A stretch of 64,000 bases of DNA from Opitutaceae bacterium. Lineage in GTDB: Bacteria; Verrucomicrobiota; Verrucomicrobiia; Opitutales; Opitutaceae. A program made the position numbers and the translations under genes. The notes under the pieces are model-generated. The model had not been told where the DNA came from. It saw nothing but the letters and a program-made list of their open reading frames with translations, and did not search any database. Below, piece after piece: positions 1 to 20,203 of the stretch. The stretch is from assembly GCA_028281165.1 (NCBI GenBank), contig JANQKI010000015.1, forward strand, positions 1 to 64,000, read 5' to 3'. Each line of letters opens with the position of its first letter. Within the stretch, counting starts at the first letter, position 1.

Positions 1-1561
1 AGTCGGGTTGACATTTTTCGGCGACGGAGCCTCTAGCACGGGAGAAATTCACGAGACTCTGAATTTCGCGGGAGTGCTTAAATTGCCCATCGTTTTCGTC
101 ATCGAGAACAACAAGTATGCCTATTCGACTCCGCTTGAAGAGCAGTACGTCGGGAGACTTGTGGACCGAGCCAAAGGCTACGATATGAAGGGAATCGAAC
201 TGGACTCCACCAATCTGGAAGAAAATCAAGCCGTCTTTTGGGAAGCTATCGAAGAGACTCGCGAGACTTGTCGGCCCATCCTGATCGAGACGCATTCCTT
301 TCGACTGCGAGGCCACGCAGGATACGATACATGCGACTATATAGATCCTGCGTTATCCGAAAAATGGCGACAAGAAGATTGCTTGCCCAATTTTCGCCAA
401 AGGCTCGTCGACAAAGGCTACGGAGACCTTCTCGATAAAGAGGATTCAATTCTTAAGGAATTTGTGGATACAACGCTGGCTCAATGTGTGAAACAGCCTC
501 CCGTAAATCCTGCAGGGATGACGGAAGACGTCTTCGCCCAGTCGCAAGCCAACGTCCCTTGGGAACCAGCGGACAGTGAAGAAACCCCTACCCTCACTTT
601 TTCAAAAGCGATTAACGAGGCTCAGCGAAAAATATTGGCGGAATCCCCTGAATCCATAATTATGGGACAGGATATAGCCAAATATGGTGGAGCCTTTAAG
701 CTAACGGAAAACCTATTTAGCGAGTTCGGCCGCGAGCGCGTGATTAACACCCCCATTTGCGAGTCCTCAATGGTTGGATACGCCACTGGCTTGGCGATAG
801 TGGGACACCGCCCCATTGTGGAATTCCAATTCGCCGATTTCGCTACCGACGCTACAACCCAAATCACGCTCAACGCAGCCACCTATCATTTCCGCTCAGG
901 AGCTAAAGTCCCGATGGTACTCCGCCTGCCCTGCGGTGGCGGCATCAACTTTGGACCTTTCCATTCTGAGGATCTTGAAGCTTTCTATCTCCACCAACCC
1001 GGCTTGAAACTGCTCTACCCAAGCACGCCACAAGACGCCTACAATGCAGTACTAGCTGCCTACGAAGACGACAATCCAGTATTGGTCTTTGAGCATAAAA
1101 AGCTCTTTCATCTCCTAAAAGCCCCCGTCAAATTCGACCAAAACTACATGGATATCTGGCAGCCGGCCCTTAGGAGAAACGGAGACTTTGCCACCGTGGT
1201 TACTTATGGCGAAATGACGCTTCAGGCTAACGATGCTCTTGAGTATCTGGAACTCGAATACGATATTTCCTGCGATATGTTTGATCTAAGAGCATTGGCC
1301 CCCCTGAAGTTCGATTCCATAAAAGAATCCGTTTCACGCACGGGACGCTTGATCGTTATCACCGAAAGTCGTCGCAATTCAGGCTTCGGAGCGGAGCTAG
1401 TCGCTCAAATCACGGAAAACCGCTTTTTCGACCTGGAGGCGCCGCCGCTCCGCATCGCCTCGAAAAACATGCCTGTACCATTCGCTCCTGAACTGGAGAA
1501 TGCGTATCGACCTAGCAAGGACAGTATCTTAGAATCGATAATAGACTGGATGGAGACCTAG
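1..1561 (+). CDS. 2-oxoacid dehydrogenase E1, alpha/beta fused (5' truncated by window edge)
   Basis: Thiamine-diphosphate-dependent E1 that decarboxylates a 2-oxoacid and acylates the lipoyl arm of an E2. The frame is open from base 2, so the gene begins outside the window. Visible residues 1-175 are the C-terminal part of an E1-alpha chain with the TPP motif GDGASSTG followed by an ENN about 25 residues on. After a short linker, residues from about 190 to the end are a full E1-beta chain (GQDIAKYGGAF, ESSMVGYATGLA, VLRLPCGGG). Both subunits are therefore one polypeptide, an arrangement known in some branched-chain-type E1 enzymes. Substrate (branched-chain 2-oxoacids or pyruvate) cannot be decided here. 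The kdsC start lies 3 bp after its stop, so it is probably cotranscribed with the LPS genes. No E2 or E3 gene is visible nearby, but a lipoyl/E3BD protein lies at 16910-18511. Confidence 0.9.
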   Translation, partial: VGLTFFGDGASSTGEIHETLNFAGVLKLPIVFVIENNKYAYSTPLEEQYVGRLVDRAKGYDMKGIELDSTNLEENQAVFWEAIEETRETCRPILIETHSFRLRGHAGYDTCDYIDPALSEKWRQEDCLPNFRQRLVDKGYGDLLDKEDSILKEFVDTTLAQCVKQPPVNPAGMTEDVFAQSQANVPWEPADSEETPTLTFSKAINEAQRKILAESPESIIMGQDIAKYGGAFKLTENLFSEFGRERVINTPICESSMVGYATGLAIVGHRPIVEFQFADFATDATTQITLNAATYHFRSGAKVPMVLRLPCGGGINFGPFHSEDLEAFYLHQPGLKLLYPSTPQDAYNAVLAAYEDDNPVLVFEHKKLFHLLKAPVKFDQNYMDIWQPALRRNGDFATVVTYGEMTLQANDALEYLELEYDISCDMFDLRALAPLKFDSIKESVSRTGRLIVITESRRNSGFGAELVAQITENRFFDLEAPPLRIASKNMPVPFAPELENAYRPSKDSILESIIDWMET

Positions 1562-1564
1562 GAA

Positions 1565-2065
1565 ATGGAAAATTCAGGTGATTCCGAAGAAATAAGTTGG
1601 GGACGTATCCAACTTTTCGCTATGGATGTGGATGGCATTCTAACAGATGCCAGCGTTTACATTTCATCAGACGGATCGGAATCGAAACGCTTCTCGATCA
1701 TCGATGGCCTTGGTCTGGTTCGCCTGAGAGAAGCTGGAATGGAAATCGCCTGGATTTCGGGAAGGGCCTCCGGCGCCACAGACTATCGAGCTAAGGAGTT
1801 GAAAATCCCTCATGTTATTCAAGGCCGTCATGACAAAGCGGAAGCGCTGAAGGAACTTATTAGCGATCTGGATATCCCAATTGAGCGGGTAGCCTACATG
1901 GGGGATGATGATATAGATGCCGGTGCAATCGGGATAGCTGGAATAGGCATAGCCGTTCCGGAAGCTCACAGAAAAGCTTTGGAAAACGCAAACTACGTCA
2001 CGAAAAGGGCCGGTGGGTATGGAGCCGTTCGCGAGGTTTGCGATCTTATCTTAGAAACTCGCTAG
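1565..2065 (+). CDS. kdsC: 3-deoxy-D-manno-octulosonate 8-phosphate phosphatase, KdsC-type HAD
   Basis: Cytoplasmic HAD-superfamily phosphatase that converts Kdo-8-phosphate to Kdo for the LPS inner core. The 166-residue length is typical for KdsC, which has no cap domain. Motif I is DVDGILTD (nucleophile Asp21, acid/base Asp23). Motif II is the Ser in AWISGRAS, and motif III/IV is GDDDIDAGAIG, where the family often has GNDxxD. It starts 3 bp after the E1 gene and 17 bp before lptC, so it belongs to the same operon as the lipopolysaccharide transport genes, which supports the Kdo role. Related YrbI-like phosphatases of other sugar acids (e.g. CMP-sialate or KDN pathways) share this fold, but the lpt context favours KdsC. 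Confidence 0.88.
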   Translation: MENSGDSEEISWGRIQLFAMDVDGILTDASVYISSDGSESKRFSIIDGLGLVRLREAGMEIAWISGRASGATDYRAKELKIPHVIQGRHDKAEALKELISDLDIPIERVAYMGDDDIDAGAIGIAGIGIAVPEAHRKALENANYVTKRAGGYGAVREVCDLILETR

Positions 2066-2082
2066 ACAACGGATTAGTCTGA

Positions 2083-2538
2083 ATGAAAGCAAGAAACACG
2101 AGTCGTAGTACTGTCGTTCTATCGATCCTTCTTTTTTCCGTAGCAGGATTGGCTACCCTCGTCTTCGGCCAGGCTCTTAACGCTCCAGTCGAGAATTTCA
2201 AATTGCCGCTTTTCAACGAGCAAGGCTTCAGAGCCTGGTACCTGAGAGGAGAACAAGGTATCTACACAGCGGAAAAGGAGGTCCGCATTTTGGGAATGGA
2301 GCTCCAGCAGTACTCAGGCAACGAGGCCGACCAAGTGATCGCTTTGATGACTAGTCCAGAAGCGAATATGCGGCTTAATCCTCTCGTAGCCTCTGGTCCT
2401 GGCAGCATAAATATAGAATCCGAATTGTTCAAAGCCGAGGGAGAGGATTGGATTTGGCAGGGCTCGGAAAAACGCTTAATTATCAACAAAAACGTAAAAG
2501 TCGTCATCAACGCGGAGATCGGCGACATCATTCGATGA
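2083..2538 (+). CDS. lptC: LPS export protein LptC
   Basis: Bitopic inner-membrane component of the Lpt machine that hands LPS from LptB2FG to LptA. The 151-residue protein has one N-terminal hydrophobic segment (about residues 10-28, VVLSILLFSVAGLATLVFG) followed by a periplasmic beta-jellyroll-type domain of DUF1239/LptC character. Sequence identity to proteobacterial LptC is low, so the call rests on the topology, the size and the position directly before lptA and lptB. Its stop overlaps the lptA start (ATGA), which indicates translational coupling. Confidence 0.75.
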   Translation: MKARNTSRSTVVLSILLFSVAGLATLVFGQALNAPVENFKLPLFNEQGFRAWYLRGEQGIYTAEKEVRILGMELQQYSGNEADQVIALMTSPEANMRLNPLVASGPGSINIESELFKAEGEDWIWQGSEKRLIINKNVKVVINAEIGDIIR

Positions 2539-3179
2539 AAACTGTACCACTCTTACTTCTATCGCTGGCGGTCATCGCTTCAAATATTCCTTCGTATTCG
2601 CAGGATAATTACAAAAAAATGCGCCCAACTGAGATTACCTGCGAAAGCGCTCAGGTAGAAAATGATGGCACCAACGCTTCGTTTGTCTTCATGAACAACG
2701 TCCAACTTTTGGCTACCAATCTCGAACTGCGTTGCGACAGATTGGAAGTCTACACGTTGAGGCGAGGACCAGAAGATGCAGCCATAGGAGACGATTTTAG
2801 CCCCGTCCAACGAATCGTGGCCATAGGCGATGTAAGCATTGCTCAAGCGGAGCGGACGGCAACCGCTGGCAGGTTGGAGATGAAGCCAAACGAGGACAGC
2901 ATAACGCTTTATGAGAATCCTGTAGTGGTTCAGGCGGGCGTTACCTTTACCGGGCCTGAGTTGATTATCGAGCGAGGCAAAGGCCGCATTTTTATTCCAG
3001 GGAACGAAAGGGATATGGTTCGCTTTGTCGGGCCGGCTATCAGGGATTTCGGGTTTGACGAAGACGATCCAGAGCAAATGGAAGAGGCGGTAAAGATACC
3101 TACCGAAGTTGAAGATCCCAGCGCGTTGGGAGAACCGATTGACGAGGACACATCCCAGGATCAAGACTCTCAGAACTAA
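2535..3179 (+). CDS. lptA: LPS transport periplasmic protein LptA (OstA-like)
   Basis: Periplasmic bridge protein that carries LPS to the outer membrane. The start chosen is the ATG at 2535, overlapping the lptC stop by 4 bp; a longer upstream reading of the frame lies inside lptC and lacks a signal peptide at its start. From this ATG the protein is 214 residues and begins with a signal peptide (MKTVPLLLLSLAVIAS, cleavage probably after SYS). The body carries OstA-type features: PTEITCESAQVE, then repeated short beta segments such as IVAIGDVSIAQ and ERTATAGRLEM. An acidic tail of about 40 residues follows (EDDPEQMEEAV onward). The stop overlaps the next start in the form TAATG. Confidence 0.8.
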   Translation: MKTVPLLLLSLAVIASNIPSYSQDNYKKMRPTEITCESAQVENDGTNASFVFMNNVQLLATNLELRCDRLEVYTLRRGPEDAAIGDDFSPVQRIVAIGDVSIAQAERTATAGRLEMKPNEDSITLYENPVVVQAGVTFTGPELIIERGKGRIFIPGNERDMVRFVGPAIRDFGFDEDDPEQMEEAVKIPTEVEDPSALGEPIDEDTSQDQDSQN

Positions 3180-3961
3180 TGGCAGAAGTCACCGAGAGCG
3201 CGACAGAAGAGGAGATTCCCGAGGTCGAGGAGCAAGAGCCAAAGCTGATCGAGGCTAGAGGCTTAGTAAAGCAGTACGGCAATAAGGCAGTGGTTAATGG
3301 CGCCAACCTAGACATCGGTATGGGAGAGGTCGTAGGTTTGCTAGGACCAAACGGCGCTGGAAAAACAACTACGTTTTATATGATCGCAGGACTGATCGAA
3401 GCGACACGCGGATTTGTCCTGCTCGACCGTAAACCCATTACTCATTTGAAAGTCCATCGTCGCGCCAGGCTAGGTATCGGCTATTTGGCTCAGGAGCCAA
3501 GCGTTTTCCGGAAGCTCACCGTTTGGCAAAACATCCAAGCGGTCGCAGAGACGCTACCCTTGAATCGTCGCCAGCGAAACAATGTAATTGAAAAACAACT
3601 CGCCGACTTGGGCCTAACCTCTCTTGCCAAGCAAAAGGCCTACACCCTTAGCGGTGGCGAGCGAAGGCGTTTGGAAATCGCTCGATGCCTGATCACTCAG
3701 CCCGACTTTCTCCTTATGGACGAACCATTCGCGGGAGTCGATCCAATCAATGTAGCCGAAGTGCAGAAAATCGTTCTCGCTCTAAAGGATAGAGGTATCG
3801 GGATACTGATTACGGATCACAATGTGCGCGACACCCTGGCCATAACGGATAGGGCCTACCTAATCCACGAAGGGAAGGTCCTAGCCAGCGGAGATCGTGA
3901 ATTTCTAATCAACGATCCGCAGAGCCGCCAAATCTACCTGGGCGAAAATTTCAATATGTAG
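3179..3961 (+). CDS. lptB: LPS export ABC transporter ATP-binding protein LptB
   Basis: Cytoplasmic ATPase that powers LPS extraction by LptB2FG. Walker A is GPNGAGKTTT (residues 56-65), the signature is LSGGERRRLEIAR, Walker B is FLLMDEPFAGVDPI and the switch His lies in ITDHNVRDTL. The closing RQIYLGENF is typical of LptB. At 260 residues it is longer than the usual ~240 because of an acidic N-terminal extension of about 22 residues (MAEVTESATEEEIPEVEEQE). The start overlaps the lptA stop by one base, so the long form is the natural one. LptF and LptG are not in the window. Confidence 0.95.
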   Translation: MAEVTESATEEEIPEVEEQEPKLIEARGLVKQYGNKAVVNGANLDIGMGEVVGLLGPNGAGKTTTFYMIAGLIEATRGFVLLDRKPITHLKVHRRARLGIGYLAQEPSVFRKLTVWQNIQAVAETLPLNRRQRNNVIEKQLADLGLTSLAKQKAYTLSGGERRRLEIARCLITQPDFLLMDEPFAGVDPINVAEVQKIVLALKDRGIGILITDHNVRDTLAITDRAYLIHEGKVLASGDREFLINDPQSRQIYLGENFNM

Positions 3962-16002: not shown

Positions 16003-16746
16003 ATGTCGGATTTTCGATGCTACTGCGAGAACACGGTCCTGAGGACAGACCGAATCGAACTATCAGCAGAGGAATCGCATCATCTCGTAGCCACCAATAG
16101 AGCTCGCGAGGGCGACGAAGTAATCGCCTTCAATGGAGAAGGGGTGGAATGGACCTGTGAACTCGAAGTAGCGGACAAAAAGCAAGCCCTCTTAAAATCG
16201 AAGTCCTATAAGGTACATCAAACGCCGGAAAAGCGCGTCACCCTCATTCAGGCAGCTCCCAAAGGCAAAGGCCTTGAAAGCATCGTACGTAGAGCGACCG
16301 AACTAGGAATTTGGCAGGTTTTGCCGGTCATGACTTCTCGCACTGAGCTGAAAATCATCACAGACCGCCAAGCCAATAAATTGGCCAAATTGAAAGCGGC
16401 TGCGATTGAGGGGGCGAAGCAAAGCGGCAACCCCTTTCTTCCGAAAATCGGAGCTCTGCAACCCTTGTTCTACGCGCTGGAAGGGTTCTTCGATTTGCAT
16501 ATCGTAGCGAGTCTGCAGCCAGAAACACGCATGGTGAAAGACATCTTCTCCGAGTTCAGGGGAAAGCACCAATTTCAACCCAAAACGGTGGCCTGTCTGA
16601 TCGGTCCGGAAGGCGATTTTACCGAAGAGGAGTACAAGGCCATTGCAAAATGCGGCTTTAAACCCGTAACCATTGGTCCTTTTGTACAGCGCTGCGAAAC
16701 AGCGGCTGTATCCATTTTATCGATCGTGCGGCAAGAGCTTTGCTAG
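16003..16746 (+). CDS. rsmE: 16S rRNA (uracil1498-N3)-methyltransferase RsmE
   Basis: SPOUT-class methyltransferase that modifies U1498 of 16S rRNA with SAM. The 247-residue length is typical. The N-terminal PUA-like domain has HHLVATNRAREGDEV. The knotted C-terminal domain has QAAPKGKGLESIVRRATELG, then IGPEGDFTEEE and the final cofactor loop IGPFVQRCETAAVSIL. In that loop the usual LGxRILRxETA is changed to GPFVQRCETA, so the Arg-Ile-Leu part is altered while ETA is kept. It is preceded by two tandem terminator units. Confidence 0.92.
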   Translation: MSDFRCYCENTVLRTDRIELSAEESHHLVATNRAREGDEVIAFNGEGVEWTCELEVADKKQALLKSKSYKVHQTPEKRVTLIQAAPKGKGLESIVRRATELGIWQVLPVMTSRTELKIITDRQANKLAKLKAAAIEGAKQSGNPFLPKIGALQPLFYALEGFFDLHIVASLQPETRMVKDIFSEFRGKHQFQPKTVACLIGPEGDFTEEEYKAIAKCGFKPVTIGPFVQRCETAAVSILSIVRQELC

Positions 16747-16909: not shown

Positions 16910-18511
16910 CTACCAAGTGAGCAAACCGCCTGCATAGGTAAAGCCAGCCCCCACGGAACAGAAGATAATCTTATCGCCTTCTTCGAAAATGCCTTCCTCG
17001 GCAGCCCACCCCAAAGCCATGGATACAGAGGCGGCAGAGGTGTTGCCGTATTTACTAATCGTTACGACAAACTTTTCGTAAGGGATCCCCACTCGCTTGC
17101 TAACCGCTTTCAAAATGCGAGCGTTCGCCTGATGAGGAACAATCCATGAGACATCGTCAGCGCTCAGACCGTGAAACTCCATTTGCTGCTCGATTATGTT
17201 GGCAAAGGCGATAACGCCTCGCTTAAAGACTACCGAGCCATCCAGCTTAAGGTAAAAGGGATCCAGATCTTCACCCGGCTTCGGAATGGGATTCATCGCT
17301 CCACCCCCCGCTCGAGAAATGGCTTCGCTGTACTGAGCGTCTCCGCTCAAATGGTGGCGATAGAGTCGATGACCGCCTTCTTGTGGCGTTAGTATTGCCG
17401 CGCCCGCTCCGTCTCCAAAAAGAAAGGCAGTGGAGTGATCCTTCGGGTTGGTAATGCTGGAAAGTATCTCCGCCGTGACCACCAAAACGTTTTTCGCGGT
17501 GCCACCACAGATGAAGGACCGCCCTACTTCTAAGGCGTAGAGCCAACCTGAGCAAGCTGCATTCAAATCGAAAGCCAAGGCCTTTTCGACACCCAGAACT
17601 TTGGCCAAAGCGCTCGCCGCTCCTGGTACTGGTTGGTCGGGCAATAAAGTGGCGACAATGACGGCATCGATATCCGTCGCTTTCAAACCGGCCATGTTGA
17701 GCGCGCCGCGAGTGGCATCAGTCGCCAGGCTGGTGGCCGATTCGCCTTCGCTGATCACGTAACGCTGCTCGATACCGGTCACTTTGAGGATCTCCTCCTC
17801 AGTCTTTCCCGGAAACTCCTTTAGGATTTCGGTGTTCGATCGAACGCTTTGGGGAACCGCATAGCCAACACCAGCGAGTCGAACGGTTTGGGCCTTCAGA
17901 GGATCTTCAGTGAAAGAAGCTTGGCCGACCTGGACATCCTTATTGAAAGACGGCACATTGCCGAGGTAGGTATCCAAATCGTCCCCTGTCACGCGGCCGC
18001 CAGGACCTGTACCGATAATGTCGGATATCGCATCGGGATCTAGTCCTCGTTCAAGAGCGATCTTCTTCGCTCGAGGCGTCCAACGAGCGCCCTTTGGTTT
18101 AGCTTCTGGCTGAGATGCCGCAGAATCACGTTGCAGCGCTTGGGGAGCCTTTATTTCAGCAAGCGGAGCGACTGTTTTGGGCTCAGGAGGAGCTACGGCA
18201 GGTACAGCGACAACATTCGACTCATCCGCCAAATCAGAAATCTCAAGGTGACTCATGGAAGCGTCTTCCGTCTCAATTCTCAAGAAGGGAGACCCTACTT
18301 GGAGAATATCTCCTGCCCGACAGAAGATGCGTCGGATGATGCCATCGCAAGGAGCTTCGAAATCGAAGATCGATTTATCACTTTCCATTTCGGCTAGCTT
18401 CTCACCCTTGGTGATCCGCTTGCCGGCTTCGCAAAGCAGGTCGATCAAGGTCATTTCGTTAACCGTCGCTCCCATGGAGGGGATGGGCACTTCAATCAAG
18501 AGCTTAGCCAT
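16910..18511 (-). CDS. lipoyl domain / E3-binding domain / ketoacyl-ACP synthase III (FabH) fusion
   Basis: A 533-residue protein with three parts. Residues 3-82 are a lipoyl domain with the modified Lys46 in ESDKSIFD. Residues 141-184 are a peripheral-subunit (E3)-binding domain (TPRAKKIALERGLD, then GTGPGGRVTGDDLD). Residues 208-533 are a complete KASIII. The KASIII triad is intact: Cys320 in LNAACSGWLYA, His460 in PHQANARI and Asn490 in KYGNTSAAS. Linkers rich in Ala/Pro/Glu join the parts, as in true E2 proteins. The acyltransferase core of an E2 is absent; FabH stands in its place. By family knowledge FabH condenses an acyl group with malonyl-ACP to start fatty acids; by inference this one may take the acyl group from its own lipoyl arm. 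It lies 45 bp downstream of pyrG in the same direction. Confidence 0.92.
   Translation of the reverse strand: MAKLLIEVPIPSMGATVNEMTLIDLLCEAGKRITKGEKLAEMESDKSIFDFEAPCDGIIRRIFCRAGDILQVGSPFLRIETEDASMSHLEISDLADESNVVAVPAVAPPEPKTVAPLAEIKAPQALQRDSAASQPEAKPKGARWTPRAKKIALERGLDPDAISDIIGTGPGGRVTGDDLDTYLGNVPSFNKDVQVGQASFTEDPLKAQTVRLAGVGYAVPQSVRSNTEILKEFPGKTEEEILKVTGIEQRYVISEGESATSLATDATRGALNMAGLKATDIDAVIVATLLPDQPVPGAASALAKVLGVEKALAFDLNAACSGWLYALEVGRSFICGGTAKNVLVVTAEILSSITNPKDHSTAFLFGDGAGAAILTPQEGGHRLYRHHLSGDAQYSEAISRAGGGAMNPIPKPGEDLDPFYLKLDGSVVFKRGVIAFANIIEQQMEFHGLSADDVSWIVPHQANARILKAVSKRVGIPYEKFVVTISKYGNTSAASVSMALGWAAEEGIFEEGDKIIFCSVGAGFTYAGGLLTW

Positions 18512-18556: not shown

Positions 18557-20203
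<1,647 letters not shown>

Follow-up and report, generated by a model that had tools for sequence, protein, structure and literature searches.

The 64,000-nucleotide stretch of Opitutaceae DNA analyzed here (the window) carries, at 16910..18511 on the minus strand, a gene for a 533-amino-acid protein made up of a lipoyl domain, a linker, an E3-binding domain, a second linker, and a ketoacyl-ACP synthase III (KASIII). Its open reading frame starts with ATG and has no internal stop codons. The lipoyl domain spans residues 6-78 (18278..18496, minus strand; Biotin_lipoyl PF00364, 4.5e-12), with Lys46 (codon 18374-18376, minus strand) in the motif E-S-D-K-S, and is followed by an Ala/Pro-rich flexible linker at residues 79-143 (18083..18277, minus strand). 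The E3-binding, or peripheral subunit-binding, domain (E3BD) occupies residues 144-178 (17978..18082, minus strand; E3_binding PF02817, 1.2e-8). The KASIII (FabH) domain, residues 208-533 (16913..17890, minus strand), has the catalytic residues Cys320, His460, and Asn490, and its two halves match ACP_syn_III at 313-388 (8.9e-26) and ACP_syn_III_C at 444-532 (8.7e-30). All four Pfam matches exceed the curated cut-offs. A 2-oxoacid dehydrogenase acyltransferase core (PF00198) was found by Pfam neither in the protein nor at the locus. An earlier, sequence-only reading of this DNA had given the same domain order, had named Lys46 and the three catalytic residues, and had put FabH in the place of the E2 catalytic core; Pfam confirms the order and the substitution, and the four residues are correctly positioned and conserved in relatives.

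Among the NCBIfam models, the protein meets the cut-off of the beta-ketoacyl-ACP synthase 3 subfamily PRK09352.1 (318 bits; cut-off 249) and falls slightly short of that of fabH TIGR00747 (282 bits; cut-off 292.1). An AlphaFold model built from 26 fused sequences has a mean pLDDT of 72, with the lipoyl domain, the E3BD, and most of the KASIII well modelled and the linkers disordered at 93-139 (pLDDT <50) and 186-202. Foldseek with the whole model returned FabH structures (E 5e-28); the global TM was poor, probably because the linkers are flexible and the model is modest, and we take the result as fold identity only. The KASIII is 32-34% identical to the FabH structures of E. coli, Yersinia, and Neisseria.

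The adjoining genes provide context only. CTP synthase (pyrG; 18557..20176, minus strand) lies just upstream, and a gene for an RsmE-type RNA methyltransferase (16003..16746, plus strand), conserved in relatives, converges on the fusion gene. The gene order in relatives is pyrG-kdsA-lipoyl/E3BD-(KASIII). We noted no dedicated ACP at the fusion locus, where open reading frames shorter than 90 amino acids were not covered.

Judging by its conserved residues, the lipoyl/E3BD arm looks functional. All 88 relatives compared have Lys46, within a nearly unchanged E-S-D-K-S motif, and in the E3BD residues W144, T145, P146, P170, and D178 are invariant and the W-T-P, G-P-G, and D-D signatures are kept. 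Lipoylation and E3 docking are inferred; the presence of E3 and of the lipoylation enzymes, which were not searched for individually, is implied by the PDH and OGDH E2s of the genome.

How should such a protein be classified? Like the fusion, the E2 of PDH, OGDH, and BCKDH (dihydrolipoyl acyltransferase) has an N-terminal lipoyl domain, a flexible linker, an E3BD, and a thiamine-type E1 partner. However, E2 has its own PF00198 core, which makes acyl-CoA and builds a 24- or 60-mer, and in the fusion this place is taken by the KASIII. Protein X (E3BP) of eukaryotic PDH also combines lipoyl and E3-binding domains without acyltransferase activity, but it has a core-like domain inside the PDH core, whereas the arm described here has no core-like domain at all. 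The best explanation is that in the fusion a KASIII has taken the place of the acyl-CoA-forming core, behind what is otherwise the E2-type arm of a 2-oxoacid dehydrogenase. Because it is unlike E2 in having no core and unlike FabH in having no CoA grip (see below), we treat it as a variant that combines two known families, and there is a fair chance that a separate class is warranted.

Recurrence of the fused and split forms

The same architecture occurs at 60-87% identity in Pelagicoccus species, including Pelagicoccus mobilis, in Verrucomicrobiae bacterium DG1235, in Puniceicoccaceae K14, and in several metagenome-assembled genomes (MAGs). The scan of named genomes recovers close relatives only, and our figures on spread are limited to the phylum. 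All full-length matches among 388 Verrucomicrobiota genomes fall within one family, in which 85 of 120 genomes carry a KASIII of the fusion type. The fused form is present in about 52 of the 120 (50 full-length fusion matches, plus 2 read from open reading frames), and the remaining KASIII carriers have split genes or are interrupted by contig ends. We read 44 distinct fused sequences, from many genera and all from this one family. With the same architecture in independent isolate genomes as well as MAGs, in so large a part of the family, the fusion is neither chance nor an assembly artifact. An assembly error joining two genes, which would have refuted the sequence-only reading, is excluded, as is an annotation error. 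The range is narrower than the spread across Verrucomicrobiota that it suggested, a single GTDB-type family in the 388 genomes sampled.

A scan of viral contigs gave no relative of the fusion that would suggest phage cargo, and a search of plasmids gave only one unrelated FabH match (40%). One further candidate, in genome G107 (query residues 104-533), proved to be an ordinary FabH whose upstream extension is unrelated. Another genome has, in addition to a 73% copy, a second, more divergent fusion (G290:C66:12452-13978; 60% identity).

In the split form, a core-less lipoyl/E3BD gene (155-216 amino acids) lies directly upstream of the KASIII gene in all 29 readable loci, mostly with a gap of 15-63 bases. 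Among the 29 is one broken fusion from a MAG (L013), and a further locus (L170) ends at a contig end. In the KASIII tree, the fused and split forms make up one clade, separate from all FabHs, with support of 100/100. With L170 set aside, the tree shows essentially one transition between fused and split forms, the direction of which is unresolved. We propose that the separate, adjacent arm and KASIII genes found in a large minority of carriers do the same job as the fusion.

The proposed E1 partner and genomes without the KASIII

The proposed loader of the lipoyl arm is a fused alpha-beta E1 (2-oxoacid decarboxylase) at 2..1561 on the plus strand, not adjacent to the arm gene. The window starts within this gene, whose 5' end is on another contig. 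Contig C263 of the same genome overlaps the window by 99 exact bases (window 1-99), which joins the two and makes the E1 gene intact. The best solved relatives of the E1 are PDH E1beta and then BCKDH E1s, and the sequence does not settle the substrate. Downstream of the fused E1, relatives have kdsC and lptC/lptA/lptB-like genes (window 1-3961; L056-L058, L197, and L199). The E1 and arm genes thus both stand beside Kdo/LPS genes, the arm after kdsA.

Does any other E2 serve this E1? The window's genome encodes three E3-binding proteins, namely a PDH-type E2 on contig C254 that adjoins its E1, SucB on contig C154 that adjoins SucA, and the fusion. Only two E2 cores (PDH and OGDH) are present, which leaves the fused alpha-beta E1 without another E2. 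An extra E1alpha/E1beta pair on contig C100 of the same genome (L021 417-2436, minus strand) also has no E2 nearby, so an orphan E1 alone is not decisive, and it is the phylogenetic profile that decides. Orthologs of the E1 (at least 53% identity, E <1e-130) are present in 35 of 388 genomes, all of one family, and the lipoyl/E3BD protein, core-less or fused (threshold >170 bits; matches at 176-276 bits, the next at 75 bits), in precisely those 35. An E2 should have a cognate E1, and this criterion is met by co-occurrence within genomes, in the absence of interaction data. Two sampled family members, G018 and G275, have neither E1 nor arm, and it is informative that both are missing together within the clade. 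The match nevertheless represents one clade, not many independent events, and its statistical weight is below the face numbers. In family genomes that are at least 90% complete, the KASIII was never found without the E1 (0 of 70).

The converse does occur. In 28 of 120 family genomes, about a quarter, the E1 is present and the fusion-type KASIII is absent. We read 16 such loci, and in 14 of them the arm gene stands alone beside or after kdsA. At L121 (G155) the start-codon rule merges the arm in frame with kdsA, and at L124 the arm is present, masked by an overlapping open reading frame. In the arm tree, the sequences from KASIII-less genomes form two clades nested in the split group, plus L122 at a contig end. 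This nesting makes secondary loss of the KASIII likelier than an ancient state without it. An arm and an E1 without the KASIII also mean that a different acceptor, whether original or acquired later, serves the arm in those genomes, our simplest guess being an ordinary FabH that works in trans.

A third PF00198 match is more frequent in well-completed genomes without the KASIII (14 of 20) than in those with it (9 of 70), a comparison that is not corrected for ancestry. In the genomes that we read, this third protein is an E1alpha-E1beta-lipoyl-E2core megafusion of 1045-1129 amino acids without an E3BD (L163 1272-4406, L164, and L165 3465-6851, with full open reading frames in L163 and L165), and in two others it is a lipoyl-E2core protein of 332-536 amino acids. 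These are separate enzymes, and on the genomes read we reject a free-standing E2 core as the substitute in KASIII-less genomes.

CoA contacts and acyl pocket of the KASIII

In FabH, the adenine of CoA sits between Trp32 and Arg151 and is bonded to Thr28, and the pantetheine arm is bonded to Arg36 (PMC4606726). The corresponding residues T28/W32/R36/R151 are K236/E240/V244/H359 in the window's fusion. We compared 44 fused and 30 split forms in FabH numbering. W32 and R36 are lost in all 73 KASIIIs that cover the site, and R151 in 74 of 74. W32 is replaced by Glu in 70 of the 73, R36 by a hydrophobic residue or Thr, R151 in most by His, and T28 by Lys, Arg, or Met. In contrast, ordinary standalone FabHs, some from the same genomes, keep all four contacts (21/21). 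The catalytic triad Cys112, His244, and Asn274 is kept in 74 of 74 fused and split forms, and R249 is also retained, along with basic residues at positions 214, 256, and 257. In FabH, these four basic positions face ACP, and F87 and F304 line the acyl pocket. Both phenylalanines are Val in the fused and split forms (V295 and V520 in the window's fusion), and the two changes together would give a roomier pocket, suited to a bulkier acyl group. In all, the KASIII has the fold, triad, and ACP-side residues of FabH but differs in its link to the arm by fusion or operon, in its CoA contacts and pocket, and in its separate clade. The Foldseek search also returned M. tuberculosis FabH mutant structures, W42A/R161A and R46A/R161A, which we take to target residues equivalent to the lost CoA contacts.

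From these substitutions we predict that the KASIII of the fused and split forms no longer grips CoA, and that its use of CoA is unlikely. Condensation of its acyl donor with malonyl-ACP is likewise inferred, the ACP-side basic residues being retained. Could the arm be a mere accessory? In that case, acyl groups from the E1 would reach CoA via the PDH or OGDH E2 core in trans, and the KASIII, fused by chance or through co-localization, would use acyl-CoA. Both E2 cores are present in the genome, and about a quarter of the family has a core-less arm and the E1 without the KASIII. However, a KASIII that has lost all four CoA contacts is a poor candidate for such a role, the core-less arm has no core-binding part, and the split arm gene adjoins the KASIII in every locus that could be read. 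We therefore regard an accessory arm as unlikely, and favor the arm as the donor to its own KASIII.

The residues alone do not identify that donor. Two distant KASIII paralogs in the window's genome, L003 and L004, also lack the CoA-grip residues in large part, so the loss signals "not CoA" rather than "lipoyl." That the acyl donor is the lipoyl group we infer from the fusion and from the E1. These paralogs leave some room for a KASIII supplied by acyl-ACP or another carrier, with the lipoyl domain in a structural, redox, or regulatory role. Against this, the invariant lysine in E-S-D-K-S and the conserved E3BD fit a catalytic arm, as does the exact co-occurrence with the E1, and we find a noncatalytic lipoyl domain very hard to credit. 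A lipoyl donor remains our preferred reading.

A proposed relay and its nearest relatives

We propose that the fused alpha-beta E1 would decarboxylate 2-oxoacids, most probably those with branched chains that derive from Val, Leu, and Ile, and would reductively acylate lipoyl-Lys46. The arm would then swing over to the attached KASIII, enter its tunnel, and hand the acyl group to Cys320, and the KASIII would join it with malonyl-ACP to form 3-ketoacyl-ACP, the start of an iso or anteiso fatty acid. E3, recruited via the E3BD, would reoxidize the dihydrolipoyl arm, and free acyl-CoA would be bypassed. There is no biochemistry behind this relay, in which we nonetheless place reasonable confidence. 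The sequence-only reading had already suggested a CoA-free relay, which gains support, at the level of sequence, from the lack of a rival E2, the E1 and arm profiles, the loss of the CoA grip, and Lys46; transfer from the lipoyl group to the cysteine is, like lipoylation, an inference. In carriers of the system, keto acids probably prime fatty acids without an acyl-CoA intermediate.

The substrate is also inferred. If the relay operates, its main substrates are probably branched 2-oxoacids. Among species of Lacunisphaera (Opitutaceae), two have 33-49% iso-C15:0 and two have 11-12% anteiso-C15:0, and iso-C14:0 is present as well (PMC5303756). These are the products expected of isovaleryl, 2-methylbutyryl, and isobutyryl primers, though the gene form in these strains is undetermined. 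The relay would explain how the family could make iso and anteiso lipids with a BCKDH-type E1 and no BCKDH E2. It is possible that the same relay instead handles a special acyl group, for instance a hydroxy-acyl chain of lipid A, a group for some other envelope lipid, or a starter unit (acetyl or propionyl), and not bulk branched membrane fatty acids. Both genes have LPS-related neighbors, the E1 gene being part of a kdsC-lpt operon and the arm gene coming after kdsA in most relatives, but this proximity may be syntenic only. Iso-C13:0 3-OH is notable in Lacunisphaera (PMC5303756), the E1 specificity is unresolved, and a standard FabH is also present; on the other side, isolates of the family contain mainly branched acids, and the wider pocket predicted from F87V and F304V does not favor acetyl. 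A special acyl group thus appears doubtful to us, and branched primers for bulk fatty acids remain the preferred assignment.

Branched-chain fatty acid synthesis is taught as two uncoupled steps linked by free acyl-CoA. In Bacillus, Listeria, and Staphylococcus, free acyl-CoA passes between a complete BCKDH (the Bkd complex) and a CoA-using FabH. The outcome proposed for the relay is the same, a branched 2-oxoacid turned into an iso or anteiso primer, but only the Bkd route has free acyl-CoA. If the relay is real, keto acids would enter lipid synthesis at its first committed step without CoA, and oxidative decarboxylation would be wired directly to carbon-carbon bond formation. The fusion offers a test of substrate channelling between pathways and a module for engineering branched or unusual primers.

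The nearest published systems are QncN/QncL/QncM, NapB/NapD/NapC, and SclQ1-4, which load glycolyl units in natural-product pathways (PMC6335953, PMC7570522). In these, too, an E1- or transketolase-like enzyme and a lipoyl domain pass an acyl group toward ACP and not to free CoA, and some of the clusters include a KASIII-like protein (NapE/DinQ) (PMC6335953, PMC7570522). However, they keep an E2-type acyltransferase domain and use an ACP thiol as acceptor, and they have no fusion of lipoyl/E3BD with a condensing enzyme and no fatty acid priming. The fusion does not meet the criterion for a QncL/NapD-type protein, as Pfam finds no acyltransferase or transketolase domain in it. The open-access literature that we searched, with partial coverage, holds no description of a lipoyl/E3BD-KASIII protein, in keeping with the earlier reading, which knew of no described enzyme of this kind. 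On balance, we lean toward a new class of 2-oxoacid dehydrogenase complex, one whose product would be 3-ketoacyl-ACP rather than acyl-CoA and whose condensing enzyme would no longer bind CoA.

A different core-less lipoyl/E3BD protein occurs in an unrelated operon of genome G059 (L209 3962-4441, minus strand, with its neighbors, and L211 13521-18286, minus strand), in a run with FabG, two FabF-type synthases, E1alpha, E1beta, an ACP, and two exosortase-associated hydrolases. It looks like a second kind of acyl-priming operon. If it is what it seems, an E1 and a core-less arm that feed condensing enzymes may have evolved more than once. Short lipoyl/E3BD-like proteins are also found in other Verrucomicrobiota families (L201 4751-5212, L202 4007-4573, L203 1105-1560, L204 4179-4661, L205 4087-4551, and L207 362-889). 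The giant open frames that we tested (L201 and L209) have no Pfam match. All six of the short proteins adjoin such a frame (>1300 amino acids), and FabG-like genes follow in some.
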